Below are positions 41,948 to 52,913 of a stretch of DNA of 64,000 bases, in pieces. Where the stretch lies: assembly GCF_015160855.1 (NCBI RefSeq), contig NZ_CP063373.1, positions 6,634,001 through 6,698,000 on the forward strand. The letters run 5' to 3'. Every line of letters starts with the position of its first letter. Within the stretch, counting starts at the first letter, position 1. The position numbers were made by a program, and so were the translations under genes. The notes below the pieces were generated by a model that saw only the letters and a program-made list of their open reading frames with translations, was not told where the DNA came from and searched no databases. Source of the stretch: Streptomyces ferrugineus (GTDB lineage: Bacteria; Actinomycetota; Actinomycetes; Streptomycetales; Streptomycetaceae).

Positions 41948-42739
41948 TCAGGCCACGTCGCTCAGAACCTGCTCGCGCACCCGGTGACAACACCGGCTGA
42001 TGAGCCGGGACACATGCATCTGCGAGATCCCCAGTTGCTCCGCGATCCTGCTCTGCGTCATGTCCCCGAAGAACCGCATGTACAGAATCGCCCGCTCCCG
42101 CTCGGGCAGCGCGGCGATCCGCGGCTTGACGGCCTCACGGTCCACGACCGTGTCCAGCGCGGGGTCGGCCGACCCCAGCGCGTCACTCAGCGAGTACCCG
42201 TCGTCGCTGCCGGGCAGCTCCGCGTCCAGCGACAGGGCGGTGAAACTCTCCAGCGCCTCGAGCCCGACGCGGACATCGGCCTCGCTCATGTCCGCGTGCT
42301 CGGCGATCTCGGCCGCGCTGGGCCTGCGGCCCGAGACGGTCTGCAGGTCCTGTACGGCGAACCGCACACGGTTGCGCAGGTCCTGCACCCGGCGCGGCAC
42401 GTGCAGCGTCCACATGTGGTCGCGGAAGTGCCGCTTGATCTCGCCGGTGATGGTGGGCACGGCGTAGCTCTCGAAGGCGTTGCCGCGCTCGGGGTCGTAC
42501 CGGTCGACGGCCTTGACCAGGCCGAGCGCCGCGACCTGTCGCAGGTCCTCGAAGCTCTCGCCACGGCTGCGGAACCGGCCGGCGAGCCGGTCGGCCATGG
42601 GCAGCCAGGCCTCGACGATCCGTTCGCGGACGGTGTCGCGCTGCTGCCCCTCGGGCAGCGAGGCGAGCCTGCGAAAGTCGTCGGCGGTGTCGGGGGCGTC
42701 GTCGTGCGGGTGGTGCTTCGCGCTCACTGAAGTGGGCAT
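41948..42739 (-). CDS. SigB/SigF/SigG-type stress RNA polymerase sigma factor
   Basis: A 263-residue group 3 sigma factor. Region 2 is recognised by DLRQVAALGLVKAVDRYDPERGNAFESYAVPTITGEIKRHFRDHMW at about residues 66-110, region 3 by PSAAEIAEHADMSEADV and region 4 by DMTQSRIAEQLGISQMHVSRLISR near 228-252. The family directs stress and sporulation genes from GNNT-N14-16-GGGTAY promoters in Streptomyces. No anti-sigma gene is adjacent, so it would be controlled in trans. ATG 42739 has a distant AAGGGAG; the upstream extension is unlikely. It is divergent from the ThDP enzyme, 245 bp apart. Confidence 0.93.
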   Translation of the reverse strand: MPTSVSAKHHPHDDAPDTADDFRRLASLPEGQQRDTVRERIVEAWLPMADRLAGRFRSRGESFEDLRQVAALGLVKAVDRYDPERGNAFESYAVPTITGEIKRHFRDHMWTLHVPRRVQDLRNRVRFAVQDLQTVSGRRPSAAEIAEHADMSEADVRVGLEALESFTALSLDAELPGSDDGYSLSDALGSADPALDTVVDREAVKPRIAALPERERAILYMRFFGDMTQSRIAEQLGISQMHVSRLISRCCHRVREQVLSDVA

Positions 42740-42984
42740 GTTGCGTAGCAACTCCCTTGGTTGTGCTCTGGCTTGGACGGTCACCGTGGGAGGGTGGGCG
42801 TATACCGGGACCGGACACACCCGTGGTGGGAAACCACCGATCCCACGGACGTGCCTCCTGTCCGAAGCACTGGTTGTCCGCCTGCCCTCACTCACAGTCC
42901 TCAAACACCGGCCAGGGTTTTCCGACCGCGCGCCGGGTCACTCGTAGCGGTGCCGCGCAGTCCCTCGGAACCAGGAGGTCCCGC

Positions 42985-45003: not shown

Positions 45004-45028
45004 GTGTCGGCTCCTTCTCATCGGGTAC
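45004..45028 (+). promoter_or_regulatory. SigB-type promoter GTGT-N15-GGGTAC before the DUF2795-CBS-PfpI-katE operon
   Basis: GTGT at 45004-45007, exactly 15 bases, then GGGTAC at 45023-45028 fits the Streptomyces SigB-family consensus GNNT-N14-16-GGGTAY. Transcription would begin near 45035, about 27 bases before the DUF2795 start. Confidence 0.75.
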
Positions 45029-45061
45029 GCGGTGCGCACCCCCGAAGATCTGGAGGGAGTC

Positions 45062-45469
45062 ATGCAGCGAGGCAGTGACCGGCTGAGCGTTCACCGCGAC
45101 GACGAGATGAAGCACGAGCTCCAGGGACTGCTGCGGTCCGGGCACCCCACGCGGACCGAGGAGTGGCACGATCCGGAGCCGTCCGCCGAGGACGATCCGC
45201 AGGTCGCGGGCGGGCCCGTGGGGTGGCCGGGGCCGTCGGCGGCATCGTTGGAGACGGTCCGGCTGGAGCTGGCGCGGATCCTGGGCCGCAGCGCCTTCCC
45301 GGCGGGCCCCCGGGACCTGATCAGTGAGCTGCGCCGCGGGTATGCGCCCGACGCCCTTGTCGAGTCGTTGGAGCGGCTGCCGCGCGGGACGCGCTACGCC
45401 AATGTCCAGGAACTGGCCGAGGCCCTGACCGGGGAGGGCCGGCCGCGCTCCCGGCGGAGGAACGCCTAG
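45062..45469 (+). CDS. DUF2795-domain protein
   Basis: A 135-residue acidic protein. The first ~65 residues are charged and probably disordered; residues about 75-125 form a DUF2795 domain (LARILGRSAFPAGPRDLISELRRGYAPDALVESLERLP...YANVQELAEAL). Function of the domain is unknown; it often occurs beside stress genes in actinobacteria. ATG 45062 has GGAGGG just upstream and lies 34 bp after a SigB-type promoter. It heads the block DUF2795-CBS-PfpI-katE, all in the same direction with 34, 20 and -1 bp gaps. Confidence 0.8.
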   Translation: MQRGSDRLSVHRDDEMKHELQGLLRSGHPTRTEEWHDPEPSAEDDPQVAGGPVGWPGPSAASLETVRLELARILGRSAFPAGPRDLISELRRGYAPDALVESLERLPRGTRYANVQELAEALTGEGRPRSRRRNA

Positions 45470-45503
45470 CGGCGCGGCCCGGACCGTGCAGGAGGGGCCG
45501 GCG

Positions 45504-45923
45504 ATGGCTGAGTTCGTGAGGGACGTCATGACGGCCGGCGTCGTCGCCGTACGCCCGGACGCCTCGCTCGTCGAGGCGGCGCAGCTCATGCGCGCGCAGG
45601 ACATCGGCGATGTGGTCGTGGCCGACGGGCAGGACGTACTCGGTGTGCTCACCGACCGTGACATCACGGTGCGCGCGGTCGCCGACGGCGTCGATCCGCT
45701 GACGGTGAGCGCCCGGTCGGTGTGCACCCGGGACCCGGTGGTGATCGGCCCGGGCGAGCGGCTGTCGGTGGCGGTCTCGCTGATGCGCGAGCACGCCGTG
45801 CGGCGGCTGCCGGTGGTCGAGGACGGTCTGCCGGTCGGTGTCGTCAGCCTCGGGGACCTGGCCGAGGCCCGGGATCCCGGCTCGGCGCTGGCCGAGATCA
45901 GCCGCGCCGTTCCGGACGAATGA
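45504..45923 (+). CDS. CBS-domain pair protein
   Basis: A 139-residue protein made of two CBS motifs: VRDVMTAGVVAVRPDASLVEAAQLMRAQDIGDVVVAD (about residues 5-41) with LGVLTDRDITVRAV, and VCTRDPVVIGPGERLSVAVSLMREHAVRRLPVVEDG (about 74-109). Paired CBS domains bind adenosine nucleotides and act as energy sensors. Free-standing copies are common in hypoxia/stress regulons of actinobacteria. AGGAGGGG lies before ATG 45504. Its stop overlaps a possible early start of the PfpI gene. Confidence 0.9.
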   Translation: MAEFVRDVMTAGVVAVRPDASLVEAAQLMRAQDIGDVVVADGQDVLGVLTDRDITVRAVADGVDPLTVSARSVCTRDPVVIGPGERLSVAVSLMREHAVRRLPVVEDGLPVGVVSLGDLAEARDPGSALAEISRAVPDE

Positions 45924-45943
45924 CGGAAGGACGTAGGGACATC

Positions 45944-46495
45944 ATGCGTATCGCTTTTCTGACCGCGCCCGAGGGCGTCGAGCAGGTCGAGCTCACCGAT
46001 CCGTGGCGGGCGGTGGTGGACGCGGGGCACGAACCGGTGCTCGTGTCGACCAGGCCGGGCTCGATCCAGGCGTTCCACCATCTCGACAAGGCGGAGAAGT
46101 TCCCCGTGCAGGAGGTCGTGGGCGAGACGTCGGCCGGCTCCTTCGGCGGGCTGGTCCTGCCCGGCGGGGTCGCCAACCCGGACTATCTGCGCACGAACCG
46201 CAAGGCCGTCGCCTTCGTACGGGACTTCTTCGAGCAGGGCCTGCCCGTCGCGGCGATCTGCCATGCCGCATGGACGCTGGTGGAGGCCGACGTCGTACGC
46301 GGCCGGGTGCTGACCTCCTGGCCGAGCCTGCGGACCGATATCCGCAACGCGGGCGGCACCTGGGTCGACGAGCAGGTGCGGATCTGCGACCACGGTCCGA
46401 ACAGGCTGGTCACCAGCCGTAAGCCGGACGATCTGAAGGCGTTCTGCGAGACGTTCCTCGACGTGTTCGCCAGGACGTCGAAGGAGGCTGTCTGA
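45944..46495 (+). CDS. DJ-1/PfpI-family protein
   Basis: A 183-residue protein of the PfpI/YhbO class, with the nucleophile elbow AICHAAWTLVEAD near residue 105 (Cys-His) and a Glu near the N-terminus (APEGVEQVELTDP). Members act as deglycases or stress-protection proteins. I chose ATG 45944; ATG 45920, overlapping the CBS stop, would add 8 residues. Its stop shares one base with the katE start (TGATG), and katE's own C-terminal domain has the same fold. Confidence 0.88.
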   Translation: MRIAFLTAPEGVEQVELTDPWRAVVDAGHEPVLVSTRPGSIQAFHHLDKAEKFPVQEVVGETSAGSFGGLVLPGGVANPDYLRTNRKAVAFVRDFFEQGLPVAAICHAAWTLVEADVVRGRVLTSWPSLRTDIRNAGGTWVDEQVRICDHGPNRLVTSRKPDDLKAFCETFLDVFARTSKEAV

Positions 46496-48588
46496 TGGGA
46501 GACCGCAAGCAGGAGCAGCGGGAGTTCTTCCGGGCGGACGACCCGACGGGCGGGCCGCTCACCACCGACCAGGGTGTGGAGGTCGACCACACCGACGACT
46601 CGCTCGCCGGCGGCGAACGCGGGCCGACGCTGATGGAGGACTTCCACTTCCGGGAGAAGCTCACCCACTTCGACCACGAGCGGATCCCCGAGCGGGTGGT
46701 GCACGCGCGGGGCGCGGGGGCGTACGGCTATTTCGAACCGTACGAGTCCTGCGCGGAGTTCACCCGTGCGGCCTTCCTCCAGGATCCGTCGGTGCGGACC
46801 CCGGTGTTCGTGCGGTTCTCCACGGTGCAGGGTCCGAAGGGATCGGCGGACACGGTGCGGGACGTGCGCGGGTTCGCGACCAAGTTCTACACCTCGGAGG
46901 GGAACTACGACCTGGTCGGGAACAACTTCCCGGTCTTCTTCATCCAGGACGGCATCAAGTTCCCCGACTTCGTGCACGCGGTGAAGCCGGAGCCGCACAA
47001 CGACATCCCGACCGGCGCCTCCGCCCACGACTCCCTGTGGGACTTCGTGTCGCTGCAGCCGGAGACGCTGCACGCGATCATGTGGCTGATGTCGGACCGG
47101 GCGATCCCGCGCAGCTACCGCATGATGCAGGGCTTCGGTGTGCACACCTTCCGGTTCGTGAACGCCGAGGGGCGCGGCACGTTCGTGAAGTTCCACTGGA
47201 AGCCGCGCCTCGGCGTGCACTCGCTGGTGTGGGACGAGGCGCAGGAGTGCCAGGGCCGTGACCCGGACTTCAACCGGCGTGACCTGTGGGACGCGATCGA
47301 GGCCGGCGAGTACCCGGAGTGGGAGTTGGGTGTCCAGCTCGTGCCGGAGGAGGACGAGTTCGCCTTCGACTTCGATCTGCTCGACGCCACGAAGATCATT
47401 CCGGAGGAGCAGGTGCCGGTGCGGCCGATCGGCCGGATGGTGCTGGACCGCAACCCGGAGAACTTCTTCGCCGAGACCGAGCAGGTGGCCTTCCACACGG
47501 CCAACGTGGTCCCGGGCATCGACTTCACCAACGATCCACTGCTCCAGGCCCGCAACTTCTCCTATCTGGACACCCAGTTGATCCGCCTCGGCGGCCCCAA
47601 CTTCGCTCAGCTGCCGGTGAACCGGCCGGTGGCGGAGGTCCGCACGAACCAGCGCGACGGCTACCACCAGGGCGCGATCCACCGGGGCACGAACTACTTC
47701 CCGAACTCCCTCGGCGGCGGCTGTCCGGCGCACGCCGGCGTCGACGGCAGTGCCTACACGCACTACGCCGAGCGGGTCGACGGCGCCAAGATCCGGCGGC
47801 GCAGCCCGAGTTTCCAGGACCACTACAGCCAGCCCGCGATGTTCTGGAACAGCATGGCGGACTGGGAGAAGGAGCACATCGTCGCGGCGTTCCGGTTCGA
47901 GCTCGGCAAGGTCGGCTCGATGACGGTGCGGGCCCGTACCGTCGAGCATCTCGCCAAGGTGAACGGCGACCTGGCGACCCGGGTCGCGCGCGGCGTCGGG
48001 GTGCCCGAGCCGTCCGCCGCGGAGGCGGCCGACAAGCTGTCCTCCCCCGCGCTGAGCCTGGAGGCGCTGCCCGGTGACGGCTCGGTCCGCACCCGGCAGA
48101 TCGCGGTTCTCGTCGCCGACGGCGTCGACACCACGCAGATCACGTCGGTGCGTGAGGCGCTCGCGGCCGAGGGCGCGGTCGTCGAGGCGCTGGCTCCGGC
48201 GGACGGCGCGGTGACCGGTGCCGACGGTGAGCGGTTCGCGGTGGACCGGGCGCTGCCGACCGTCGCCTCCGTGCTGTACGACGCGGTGCTGCTGCCGGGC
48301 GGACCGGTGGGCACCCCGTCCACGGCCGCGGACCCGGACGCGATGCGCTTCCTGCGGAACGCCTACCGGCACGGCAAGCCGGTGGGCGCGCTCGGCTCCG
48401 GCGTGGGTGTCCTGTCGTCCCTGGAGCCGGCGGGCGTACGGCTGTCCGCCGAGTTCCACCACCCGGTGAGCGACCACGGCGTGGTGTCGGACACCTCACC
48501 GGGCCCGGCGAGCGAGGAGTTCCTGCGCGCCTTCACCGCGGCCCTCTCGGCCCACCGCCACTGGGACCGCCCACCGGTGCGCCACTGA
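46495..48588 (+). CDS. katE: Large-subunit catalase (HPII/KatE type)
   Basis: A 697-residue monofunctional heme catalase that dismutates hydrogen peroxide. The catalytic His is in [14 protein letters not shown] near residue 70, the Asn in [12 protein letters not shown] near 143 and the proximal heme Tyr in [15 protein letters not shown] near 353. Residues about 530-697 form the extra DJ-1/PfpI-like domain typical of large-subunit catalases ([18 protein letters not shown]). The gene is translationally coupled to the PfpI gene and is last in a unit driven by a SigB-type promoter at 45004-45028. In Streptomyces this catalase type serves osmotic and stationary-phase protection. Confidence 0.97.
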
Positions 48589-48599
48589 AGCCCTCCGGG

Positions 48600-48725
48600 A
48601 TGCCGGCGCTCGCGAAGACCGCCGGCATCCCGGAGCGCGGCGGCAAGGTCCCCACCGACGAGAAGGTGGCCGTCTCGCAGTCGGCGGCCGGCGACTTCAA
48701 GGCCTTCTCGACGATCTGCACGCAG
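48600..48725 (+). pseudogene. Fragment of a Rieske [2Fe-2S] protein gene
   Basis: Frame from 48600 reads PALAKTAGIPERGGKV, then DEKVAVSQSAAGDFKAFSTICT, which matches the start of small actinobacterial Rieske proteins up to the first cluster Cys. It then loses the pattern: the expected CTHxGC and CPCHG motifs are gone (QVARPSGVTP instead). There is no signal peptide upstream. Both ends are missing, so this is a remnant between katE and the DUF6158 gene, not a working protein. Confidence 0.65.
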
Positions 48726-48744
48726 GTGGCCCGGCCCTCGGGCG

Positions 48745-48999
48745 TCACCCCGGCGGCGCGGTGGACGCCGGCGTGCCGCAGCCGCGGTCGCGGGCGCCGT
48801 CGCGGGTCCGGCCCGAGGCGACGGTGCGGCGTGGGTTGCGGCGCAGGTACTCGCCCTCCAGCTGCGCCATCCGTTCGTTGTGGGCGCGCAGCGCGTCGTT
48901 CGAGCCGTACAGCAGCGTGTCGTGGCGCGTCCGGTGGATGGTCTCCAGCTCCTTCATGAGCTGTTGGTCGTCCAGCCGGCCAGGGTCGACTCCGGTCAT
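48745..48999 (-). CDS. DUF6158-like small protein
   Basis: An 84-residue charged protein, MTGVDPGRLDDQQLMKELETIHRTRHDTLLYGSNDALRAHNERMAQLEGEYLRRNP in outline (given here as segments: residues 1-18 acidic, 19-60 helical). It recalls a Streptomyces family of unknown function found near stress genes. ATG 48999 was chosen since the longer frame (to 49113) would cover the promoters. Its upstream 90 bp hold a divergent pair of SigB-type promoters shared with the baeRF2 gene. The last ~12 residues (GTPASTAPPG) may be read-through into former Rieske DNA. Confidence 0.75.
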   Translation of the reverse strand: MTGVDPGRLDDQQLMKELETIHRTRHDTLLYGSNDALRAHNERMAQLEGEYLRRNPRRTVASGRTRDGARDRGCGTPASTAPPG

Positions 49000-49017
49000 G
49001 GTGGTGCCCCGCTCGTC

Positions 49018-49042
49018 GTGTTCAATCTTGCGGTCCGGGTAC
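49018..49042 (+). promoter_or_regulatory. SigB-type promoter GTGT-N15-GGGTAC for the baeRF2 gene
   Basis: GTGT at 49018-49021, 15 bases, GGGTAC at 49037-49042: an exact match to GNNT-N14-16-GGGTAC with the same spacing and -35 as the promoter at 45004. Its start codon is 47 bp downstream of the -10. Confidence 0.75.
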
Positions 49043-49063
49043 CCGCCCGTCGAGCAGACAGCC
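49039..49063 (-). promoter_or_regulatory. SigB-type promoter GGCT-N15-GGGTAC for the DUF6158 gene
   Basis: On the minus strand GGCT (49063-49060), 15 bases, GGGTAC (49044-49039). It shares the palindrome GGGTACCC with the plus-strand promoter, so the two -10 elements overlap by four bases and transcription diverges from one spot. Confidence 0.65.
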
Positions 49064-49088: not shown

Positions 49089-50195
49089 ATGGATCTCGCC
49101 TTTCTGCATCCACTGTACGAACACCTGGGGCCCTGGGCCTCCGTGTACGTCGACACCTCCCGCCACACGGCGGACACGCCGCACGAGCGGCACCTGACGG
49201 CCCGGGCCCTGTCCCAGGAGCTGGCCGGGCAGGGCTGCGACGACGCGACCTGCCGGGCCGTGCAAGGCGCGCTGGAGGAACTGGAGCACTCGTCCGAGCC
49301 GCACGGCCGCGCGATCTTCGCCCGTGCGGGTGAGGTGGTCCTGGACCCGCCGCTGGCCCGCGCCCCGGTGCGCGACAGCGCCCACTGGGCCCCGCTGCCG
49401 CACACCGCGCCGCTGCTGGAGCTGGCCGGCGAGGACCCGGTCTGCGTGGTGGCCTACGTCGACCGCAAGGGCGCCGCCTTCGAGCTGCGCACCGCGCTGG
49501 GCCGGCAGGACGTCGGCGAGGTCTCCGGCCGGCAGCATCCGGTGCACCGTACGAGCACGGCCGACTGGTCCGAGCGGCACTTCCAGCTCAAGGTGGAGAA
49601 CACCTGGGAGCACAACGCCGCCGAGATCGCCGACGCGCTCGCCGTCTGCCAGGAGGAGACCCGCGCCGACCTGCTGGTTCTCGTCGGTGACGACCGGGAG
49701 CGGCGCACCGTGCGCGAACGGCTGCCGCAGCGCCTGGACGACCTGGTGGTCGAGGCCCCGCACGGCACCGGCAGCAGGCTGCTGGACGAGGACGTGGCAC
49801 AGGCCCGGGCCGAGCATGTGCGGCAGCGGGCGACGCGGGAGCTGGAGCGGTTCCTGGCGGCCCGCGAGCCGGGTCCCGAGGGGCGCGCCGGAGCGGTGGA
49901 GGGCGTGCCCGCGCTGGTCGAGGCCGCCCGTGAGCACCGTATCGACGAGCTGCTGATCCGCCCGGACGGCCCCGACGCCCACCGCGAGGTGTGGATCGGC
50001 GAGGACCCGGACCAGCTGGCGGTGCGCCGCACGGACCTCAGGATCCTCGGCGAACAGCACTCCTGGCCGGCCCGCGCCGACGACGCCCTGATCCGCTCGG
50101 CGGTCGCAACCGGCGCGTCGGCCGTGTCGGTCACCCCGGCGCACCCGACCCGGGACCCGGCAGGCGGGCTGGGCGCCCTGCTGCGCTGGACATGA
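49089..50195 (+). CDS. baeRF2-like protein (bacterial release-factor-fold, Rv2629 type)
   Basis: A 368-residue protein of the bacterial archaeo-eukaryotic release-factor-like group: MDLAFLHPLYEHLGPWASVYVDTSR at the start, VCVVAYVDRKGAAFELR near 117-133 and a C-terminal L7Ae-like part (VEAAREHRIDELLIRPDG, IRSAVATGASAVSV). In mycobacteria the homologue Rv2629 belongs to the hypoxia/dormancy regulon; a role on stalled ribosomes is suspected from fold only. GGGAGTG lies upstream of ATG 49089. Its 3' end (about 50104-50195) has been copied twice into the downstream gap. Confidence 0.8.
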   Translation: MDLAFLHPLYEHLGPWASVYVDTSRHTADTPHERHLTARALSQELAGQGCDDATCRAVQGALEELEHSSEPHGRAIFARAGEVVLDPPLARAPVRDSAHWAPLPHTAPLLELAGEDPVCVVAYVDRKGAAFELRTALGRQDVGEVSGRQHPVHRTSTADWSERHFQLKVENTWEHNAAEIADALAVCQEETRADLLVLVGDDRERRTVRERLPQRLDDLVVEAPHGTGSRLLDEDVAQARAEHVRQRATRELERFLAAREPGPEGRAGAVEGVPALVEAAREHRIDELLIRPDGPDAHREVWIGEDPDQLAVRRTDLRILGEQHSWPARADDALIRSAVATGASAVSVTPAHPTRDPAGGLGALLRWT

Positions 50196-52829: not shown

Positions 52830-52887
52830 GTACGGGTTCCTCCGTGTGTCGGTCACCGCCGGACGGACAGCAATCGGCCACTTCAGG

Positions 52888-52913
52888 GTACCCAGCCCTG
52901 TATGAGCCCAGAC
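52888..52913 (-). promoter_or_regulatory. Possible SigB-type promoter of the histidine-phosphatase gene
   Basis: On the minus strand GTCT (52913-52910), 16 bases and GGGTAC (52893-52888) fit the consensus, 59 bp upstream of the start codon. The -10 is again part of a GGGTACCC palindrome. No matching -35 exists for the opposite strand, and part of the box lies in the divergent gene. Confidence 0.4.

Follow-up and report, generated by a model that had tools for sequence, protein, structure and literature searches.

Three strings that fit the SigB-type promoter consensus reported for Streptomyces, GNNT-N14-16-GGGTAY (PMC8346170, PMC5402319), lie within 4.06 kb of the Streptomyces ferrugineus genome, upstream of a DUF2795-CBS-PfpI-katE operon, of baeRF2 and of the DUF6158 gene, which is divergent from baeRF2. 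Which of these strings are promoters, and which genes do they serve? We addressed this question in the surrounding stretch of 64,000 nucleotides (hereafter, the window), positions 6,634,001-6,698,000 of the 9.96 Mb single-contig genome. The comparisons described below make it likely that two SigB-type promoters drive the DUF2795 operon and baeRF2, and that DUF6158 is transcribed mainly from a HrdB-like promoter located antisense inside baeRF2.

An earlier note on this DNA claimed three exact promoter strings, and all of them are present: GTGT-N15-GGGTAC at 45004-45028 and 49018-49042 on the forward strand, and GGCT-N15-GGGTAC at 49063-49039 on the reverse strand. Their -10 elements end 33, 46 and 39 bases before the ATG codons at 45062, 49089 and 48999 (reverse strand), respectively, and all three fit the loose rule of a GNNT -35, a spacing of 14-16 bases and a GGG-N-A -10. 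The features at issue are as follows.

45004..45028, forward: SigB-type promoter of the DUF2795-CBS-PfpI-katE operon, GTGTCG-N13-GGGTAC, found in 75/75 readable relatives
49018..49042, forward: SigB-type promoter of baeRF2, GTGTTC-N13-GGGTAC, with its -10 in the invariant block CGGGTACCCGCC; based on conservation and the gene-loss test
49039..49063, reverse: proposed DUF6158 promoter, GGCT-N15-GGGTAC, not supported (unconserved -35, low matrix rank of 330, decay of the palindrome)
49105..49142, reverse: antisense element in baeRF2 codons 6-18, a candidate HrdB-type promoter for DUF6158 on account of its retention in lost loci
48745..48999, reverse: DUF6158 gene (PF19655, 111.6 bits)
49089..50195, forward: baeRF2, relative of the ribosome-hibernation factor Rv2629/Balon (PF18844; NF052289; PDB 8v9k)

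Conservation of the forward-strand promoters and loss of baeRF2

Two samples were compared. The named relatives are the best 80 of 157, all of them Streptomyces, and are hence biased towards near kin. The wider sample derives from a DUF6158 search of 147 genomes of the order (83 with DUF6158 and 64 without) and comprises 83 DUF6158 loci from 82 genomes, two loci coming from one genome, with the S. ferrugineus genome itself and one weak second match excluded. These loci fell into three classes: 40 with an intact baeRF2 (300 or more matched residues), 28 lost loci, where the DUF6158 surroundings are the same and baeRF2 is gone or broken, and 15 in other surroundings. Promoters in intact and lost loci were counted in one identical search range.

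Upstream of DUF2795, GTGT-N15-GGGTAC is present in all 75 of the 80 named relatives that are readable there, with the -35 and -10 at fixed spacing, which bears out the promoter claimed for this operon. The flanking CG after GTGT and GCGG after GGGTAC are kept in 74-75 of the 75, and most spacer columns are variable. Upstream of baeRF2, the block CGGGTACCCGCC is invariant in 80/80 relatives, including GGGTAC, and the four GTGT columns are kept in 79, 79, 77 and 79 of 80. In 65 of the 80, where an upstream ATG stands at the aligned place, this -35 falls in codons of DUF6158. At the codon carrying the -35 T, the third base is A in 79/80 (GAA in 60, GCA in 13, GGA in 3, ACA in 3; AGG in one), and GAG is the preferred codon in baeRF2, with a GAG:GAA usage of 2587:357. 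The -35 T is thus kept while the residue varies and against codon preference, so that it is the DNA, not the protein, that is conserved.

The fate of this promoter after loss of baeRF2 points the same way. Strict GTGT-N15-GGGTAC was found in 40/40 intact and 9/28 lost loci (Fisher 2e-10), GTGT-N14-16-GGGTAC in 40/40 and 11/28 (Fisher 5e-9), and the loosest rule, GNNT-N14-16-GGGTAY, in 40/40 and 13/28 (Fisher 8e-8). A DUF6158 gene tree of the 68 intact and lost loci required 14 changes between the two labels, 8 of them forced by well-supported branches, which indicates that baeRF2 loss was repeated; the gene is short, and 26 of the 65 inner branches of this tree are open. The promoter decays where baeRF2 is lost and therefore serves baeRF2, so that the claim of a SigB-type promoter before this gene, too, is upheld by the invariant block, the retained -35 and the decay.

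Chance matches in a GC-rich genome might account for such strings. GNNT-N15-GGGTAC has 130 matches in the genome (58 + 72) against 210 for the reversed control pattern and hence is not enriched genome-wide; GTGT-N15-GGGTAC has 9 against 24 for its reversed control, two of the nine lying at this block. In the window, GNNT-N15-GGGTAY matches four times where 1.5 are expected, and 10 of 100 shuffles reach four. With a position weight matrix (PWM) built from 24 published Streptomyces coelicolor promoters, the three strings rank 10th, 21st and 330th within the window. The earlier note had argued that three fits within 4 kb are improbable, and their clustering is indeed unusual: the Poisson P for three GNNT-N15-GGGTAC matches in 4.06 kb is ~2.4e-5, with ~0.06 such clusters expected per genome, and ~0.016 GTGT-N15-GGGTAC pairs this close are expected in the genome. 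However, because the motif is not enriched over the reversed control, clustering alone is modest evidence. A scan for proximity to gene starts, also proposed in that note, placed 8 of 41 sites (38 loci of this genome, from the 130 matches) and none of 5 control sites near starts, with a crude gene caller that missed the promoter at 49018, and is not relied on here. The strong evidence is conservation, and it applies to the first two promoters only. Given the 75/75 and 80/80 conservation, the -35 retained against codon preference and the decay upon gene loss, we reject a chance origin of the two forward-strand promoters and regard chance as a very improbable account of the three strings; the GGCT of the third may be a chance match.

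Candidate promoters of DUF6158

The palindromic -10 CGGGTACCCG of the baeRF2 promoter would, on the reverse strand, serve as the -10 of the third string. A bidirectional SigB promoter would then fire both ways from this palindrome, yielding baeRF2 mRNA and a near-leaderless DUF6158 mRNA, both stress induced. The palindrome is invariant in 80/80 named relatives and, in the wider sample, is present in 39/40 intact loci; on the reverse side, it is closely followed by the upstream ATG of 65/80 relatives. The predicted starts are separated by 17 bp, near the commonest distance of 18 bp among the bidirectional promoters of Escherichia coli described in PMC12825309, with which the symmetrical -10 is shared, and 264 leaderless mRNAs are reported for S. 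coelicolor (PMC4681348). Those E. coli promoters, however, have a housekeeping sequence, whereas the one here is of the SigB type with a reverse side that is not conserved on its own: the reverse -35 columns (22-27) vary while the -10 is kept in 80/80, and GGCT is altered even in the near relatives L010, L011, L012 and L015. The GCGG that follows GGGTAC is equally conserved in the DUF2795 promoter, which has no palindrome. The palindrome is also found in merely 11 of the 28 lost loci, against 39 of the 40 intact ones (Fisher 7e-8), with DUF6158 kept in both classes. GTACCC alone was counted in 18 of the 28 lost loci, a figure raised by GTACCCC within the codons of DUF6158 and hence disregarded. 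As the palindrome is often gone while DUF6158 stays, DUF6158 does not depend on the mirrored promoter. The claim of a SigB-type promoter for DUF6158 is thus not supported, given its unconserved -35, poor PWM score and a -10 that often decays upon baeRF2 loss, and we consider bidirectional firing improbable. The ATG found in 65/80 relatives lies 30 bases upstream of the DUF6158 start; in the window, 49027-49029 reads AAG, and DUF6158 therefore probably starts here at 48999 or elsewhere.

What persists in the lost loci is a different sequence, located antisense within the first codons of baeRF2. On the reverse strand of the window, it consists of GGAGGCCC (49142-49135), GTTCG-TACAGT with the -10 at 49117-49112, and a predicted start A at 49105; its consensus is GGAGGCCC, then GATGTTCG-TASAGT-GGA, then A at +1. 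Among the 28 lost loci, 25 carry it with at most one mismatch to TCCACTSTACGAACAT and 27 with at most three; it is missing in one (L121). In the 27 that could be aligned, T(-7) and A(-11) are both kept in 27/27 and the start A in 24. In ten lost loci (L130, L149, L155, L167, L172, L173, L175, L177, L190 and L191), the element is closer to DUF6158 than in short-spaced intact loci, so that intervening DNA is gone; the element is nevertheless there with at most one mismatch in 10/10, and L167 is the only one of the ten that still has the palindrome and the strict SigB promoter. An in-frame N-terminal extension of DUF6158 was rejected as the cause of retention because the retained elements, 34-151 bases from the DUF6158 ATG, are in differing frames.

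Where baeRF2 is present, CCACTSTACGAAC is carried by 72/80 named relatives, and the element coincides with codons that are rare further on in the gene: CCA in 74/80 compared with 16 of 1519 later Pro codons (1%), and GAA in 79/80 compared with 255 of 2723 later Glu codons (9%). The element is missing from the six long-spaced intact loci, as expected if the DUF6158 promoter sits in the wider gap there, but all six are distant as well (50-54% identity). HrdB promoters of S. coelicolor are reported to have T at -7 and A at -11, with a weak or no -35 (PMC6344877). The element resembles these in its TANNNT -10 with T(-7) and A(-11), and its AGGCCC at a spacing of 17 may correspond to their weak -35; it differs in lying antisense in the first codons of another gene and in being kept after the loss of that gene. 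Judged from sequence, this HrdB-like element is the better-supported candidate for the DUF6158 promoter than the mirror-image SigB string.

The same retention might reflect a site other than a promoter, such as an operator, a processing site or an attenuator that acts on DUF6158 or on readthrough from an ABC-F gene upstream of it. Consistent with this, the sequence at the -35, AGGCCC, does not resemble TTGACA, GTTCG before the -10 is nearly invariant, as in a protein site, and DUF6158 directly follows a same-strand ABC-F gene in those lost loci where an ABC-F match was seen. The spacing of 17, TASAGT and the conserved A seven bases downstream suit a promoter instead, and HrdB promoters often have no conserved -35 (PMC6344877). 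At up to one mismatch, the 14-base motif of the element has a single match in the genome, which gives no sign of a regulon; a regulon-wide motif was rejected on this count. We therefore hold an operator or attenuator to be unlikely.

Several observations weigh against a HrdB-like DUF6158 promoter combined with a SigB-type promoter dedicated to baeRF2. In the wider sample, ACTSTACGAAC is exact in only 22/34 short-spaced intact loci, and a non-CCA codon removes T(-7) in 10 of these 34 and in 6/80 named relatives; in these lineages, DUF6158 must then be transcribed from elsewhere, perhaps from the palindrome, which speaks for bidirectional firing. Of the 28 lost loci, 18 have no shortened spacing and may be recent losses; the strict SigB promoter is retained in 8 of the 18, and the palindrome in 10. 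The reverse-side -35 sequences have a mean PWM score of 0.44 compared with -0.94 for shuffles (standard deviation 0.38), a comparison in which related rows share them. The antisense element was picked by eye before counting, which makes its P values descriptive, and the counts in general are not independent because the loci are related to one another and some species may be present in both samples.

The 15 DUF6158 copies in other surroundings (L162, L179, L180, L188, L189 and L192-L201) have no baeRF2 match, and neither the palindrome nor the antisense element was seen in the stretches inspected. The name DUF6158 was not found in the literature searched, whereas DUF2795 is mentioned there in two papers.

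Predicted transcript overlap and a possible toggle

With a HrdB-like promoter inside baeRF2, the DUF6158 mRNA is expected to have a leader that extends from 49105 to 48999; this leader would run across the SigB promoter and overlap by ~57 bases with the 5' end of the baeRF2 mRNA. Under the arrangement that we favor, a SigB-family sigma, perhaps the product of the 42-kb gene with its own SigB-type promoter, would under stress switch on both the DUF2795-CBS-PfpI(-katE) operon and baeRF2 from promoters that appear to be under strong purifying selection, so that oxidative-stress proteins and ribosome hibernation would be induced together. DUF6158 would be transcribed mainly from the TASAGT promoter antisense in the first codons of baeRF2. 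What the comparisons show are the sequences, their conservation and their fate after gene loss; promoter activity, transcription starts, the choice of sigma factor, the stress signal and a role in hibernation are inferred from these.

This geometry suggests, tentatively, a growth/stress toggle between DUF6158 and baeRF2. During growth, HrdB would fire the antisense promoter, producing DUF6158 together with a leader that is antisense to the start of baeRF2 and traverses its SigB promoter, so that the hibernation factor stays off; under stress, a SigB-type holoenzyme on the promoter within the DUF6158 leader would turn hibernation on and DUF6158 down. If so, DUF6158 would be the growth-phase counterpart of the hibernation factor, but we consider such a toggle doubtful. 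As in the excludons described in PMC4179725, the genes are divergent and their transcripts would overlap, and SigB is involved in Listeria examples; the likeness is one of geometry alone, and the overlap predicted here is ~57 bases only. The divergent baeRF2/DUF6158 pair offers a natural experiment on promoter overlap, in which a promoter-like element hidden in the codons of another gene outlives that gene. More broadly, a likely hibernation factor, a catalase operon and little-studied protein families would belong to a single SigB-type regulon that can be tested in bacteria that produce antibiotics.

Genes of the block and the SigB-family sigma factor

A check of the window genes against Pfam and NCBIfam identified a SigB/F/G-family sigma factor, a poxB-like thiamine-diphosphate enzyme, DUF2795, a protein with two CBS domains, PfpI, a large catalase, DUF6158 (on the reverse strand) and baeRF2. 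With an E value of 2.7e-22, the baeRF2 protein matches Rv2629 in PDB 8v9k, titled "Ribosome hibernation factor Balon", over residues 13-367, and it contains neither a GGQ nor a NIKS motif; of the 80 relatives, two show the letters GGQ and none shows NIKS. Balon, Rv2629 and Msmeg1130 likewise are reported to be devoid of GGQ and NIKS, and the latter two to occupy the A site and inhibit translation (PMC10901736). Against a closer assignment, the score with NF052289, 245.3 bits, is under the curated cut-off of 320, and we therefore call baeRF2 a relative rather than a member of that equivalog: by sequence, a full-length Rv2629/Balon relative and likely a ribosome-hibernation gene. Balon genes typically reside in stress operons (PMC10901736), and baeRF2 likewise has a neighborhood of stress-type genes, although it adjoins DUF6158 whereas the commonest Balon neighbor in that work is RaiA. 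A SigB-type promoter for a Balon-type gene of Streptomyces was not found in PMC10901736, the main text of which does not contain the word Streptomyces. Among the ten matches listed in a literature search, judged by title and beginning of the abstract, none joined Streptomyces ribosome hibernation to an osmotic-stress sigma, which is no proof of novelty.

The operon and sigma features are the following.

45062..45469, forward: DUF2795 protein gene (PF11387, 53 bits)
45504..45923, forward: two-CBS-domain protein gene (PF00571)
45944..46495, forward: PfpI/DJ-1 family gene (PF01965), the stop of which overlaps the katE start (TGATG)
46495..48588, forward: katE, large-subunit catalase, HPII-like (PF00199, PF18011; NF008422 below its cut-off)
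41948..42739, reverse: SigB/SigF/SigG-family sigma factor gene (TIGR02980, 290.9 bits, cut-off 234)
42882..42906, reverse: predicted SigB-type promoter of the sigma gene, GTTTGA-N13-GGGCAG, second-best PWM score in the window

The four operon genes are separated by 34, 20 and -1 bases. katE is present at this site in 28/79 relatives and absent in 51/79, which makes it a passenger rather than part of the operon core, so that its role as the defining member of the block had been overstated. Judging by gap size, 26/70 relatives (e.g., L010, L022, L047 and L080) have an extra gene of ~215 residues between CBS and PfpI, which is absent from the window.

The predicted promoter of the sigma gene is matched in its loose form in 36 of the 40 relatives with a readable sigma start, and the sigma gene adjoins the block in 38 of 56 loci with enough flank, under a rule set in this analysis. 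S. coelicolor has nine SigB homologues, and six SigBFG genes exceed the cut-off in the present genome. Nearly all of 24 tested promoters were recognized by two or more SigB homologues (PMC8346170). The proposed link to the sigma factor at 42 kb thus holds as far as a SigB/F/G-family gene with its own SigB-type promoter is concerned, but assignment of the block to this particular sigma was overstated, given the six genes and the overlapping specificity of the homologues. Action of a SigB-family sigma at the two forward-strand promoters is supported. These promoters share the -10 GGGTAC, the spacing and the GNNT -35 with Streptomyces SigB-type promoters; the -35 here is GTGT, and GTTT is common among the promoters of PMC8346170. 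The block is linked to osmotic stress solely by analogy. No catalase or hibernation factor appears by name in Table 1 of PMC8346170, which also contains hypothetical proteins identified by SCO number.

Three further observations were made. The poxB-like gene is preceded at 42917-42945 by GTTTTCC and GGGTCACTCG, a pair that is kept in 17/20 relatives read and could be a further SigB-like or other promoter. GGGTACCC at 52886-52893 stands just before a PAP2/lipid-kinase-like gene (ATG at 52902), a name based on its sequence alone, and lies within 90 bases upstream of that gene in 24/39 relatives read; a second SigB bidirectional promoter at this palindrome was rejected, there being no GNNT on the forward side. 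On the reverse side, GTCT-N16-GGGTAC is present. Finally, among the first 100 of the 130 genome matches, the identical 25-mer GGTTGTTTTCTCTTCCTGCGGGTAC occurs at no fewer than four reverse-strand places, at least at 564272, 1259401, 2932117 and 3470199 of the S. ferrugineus contig (G000:C1), and is probably a repeated element.

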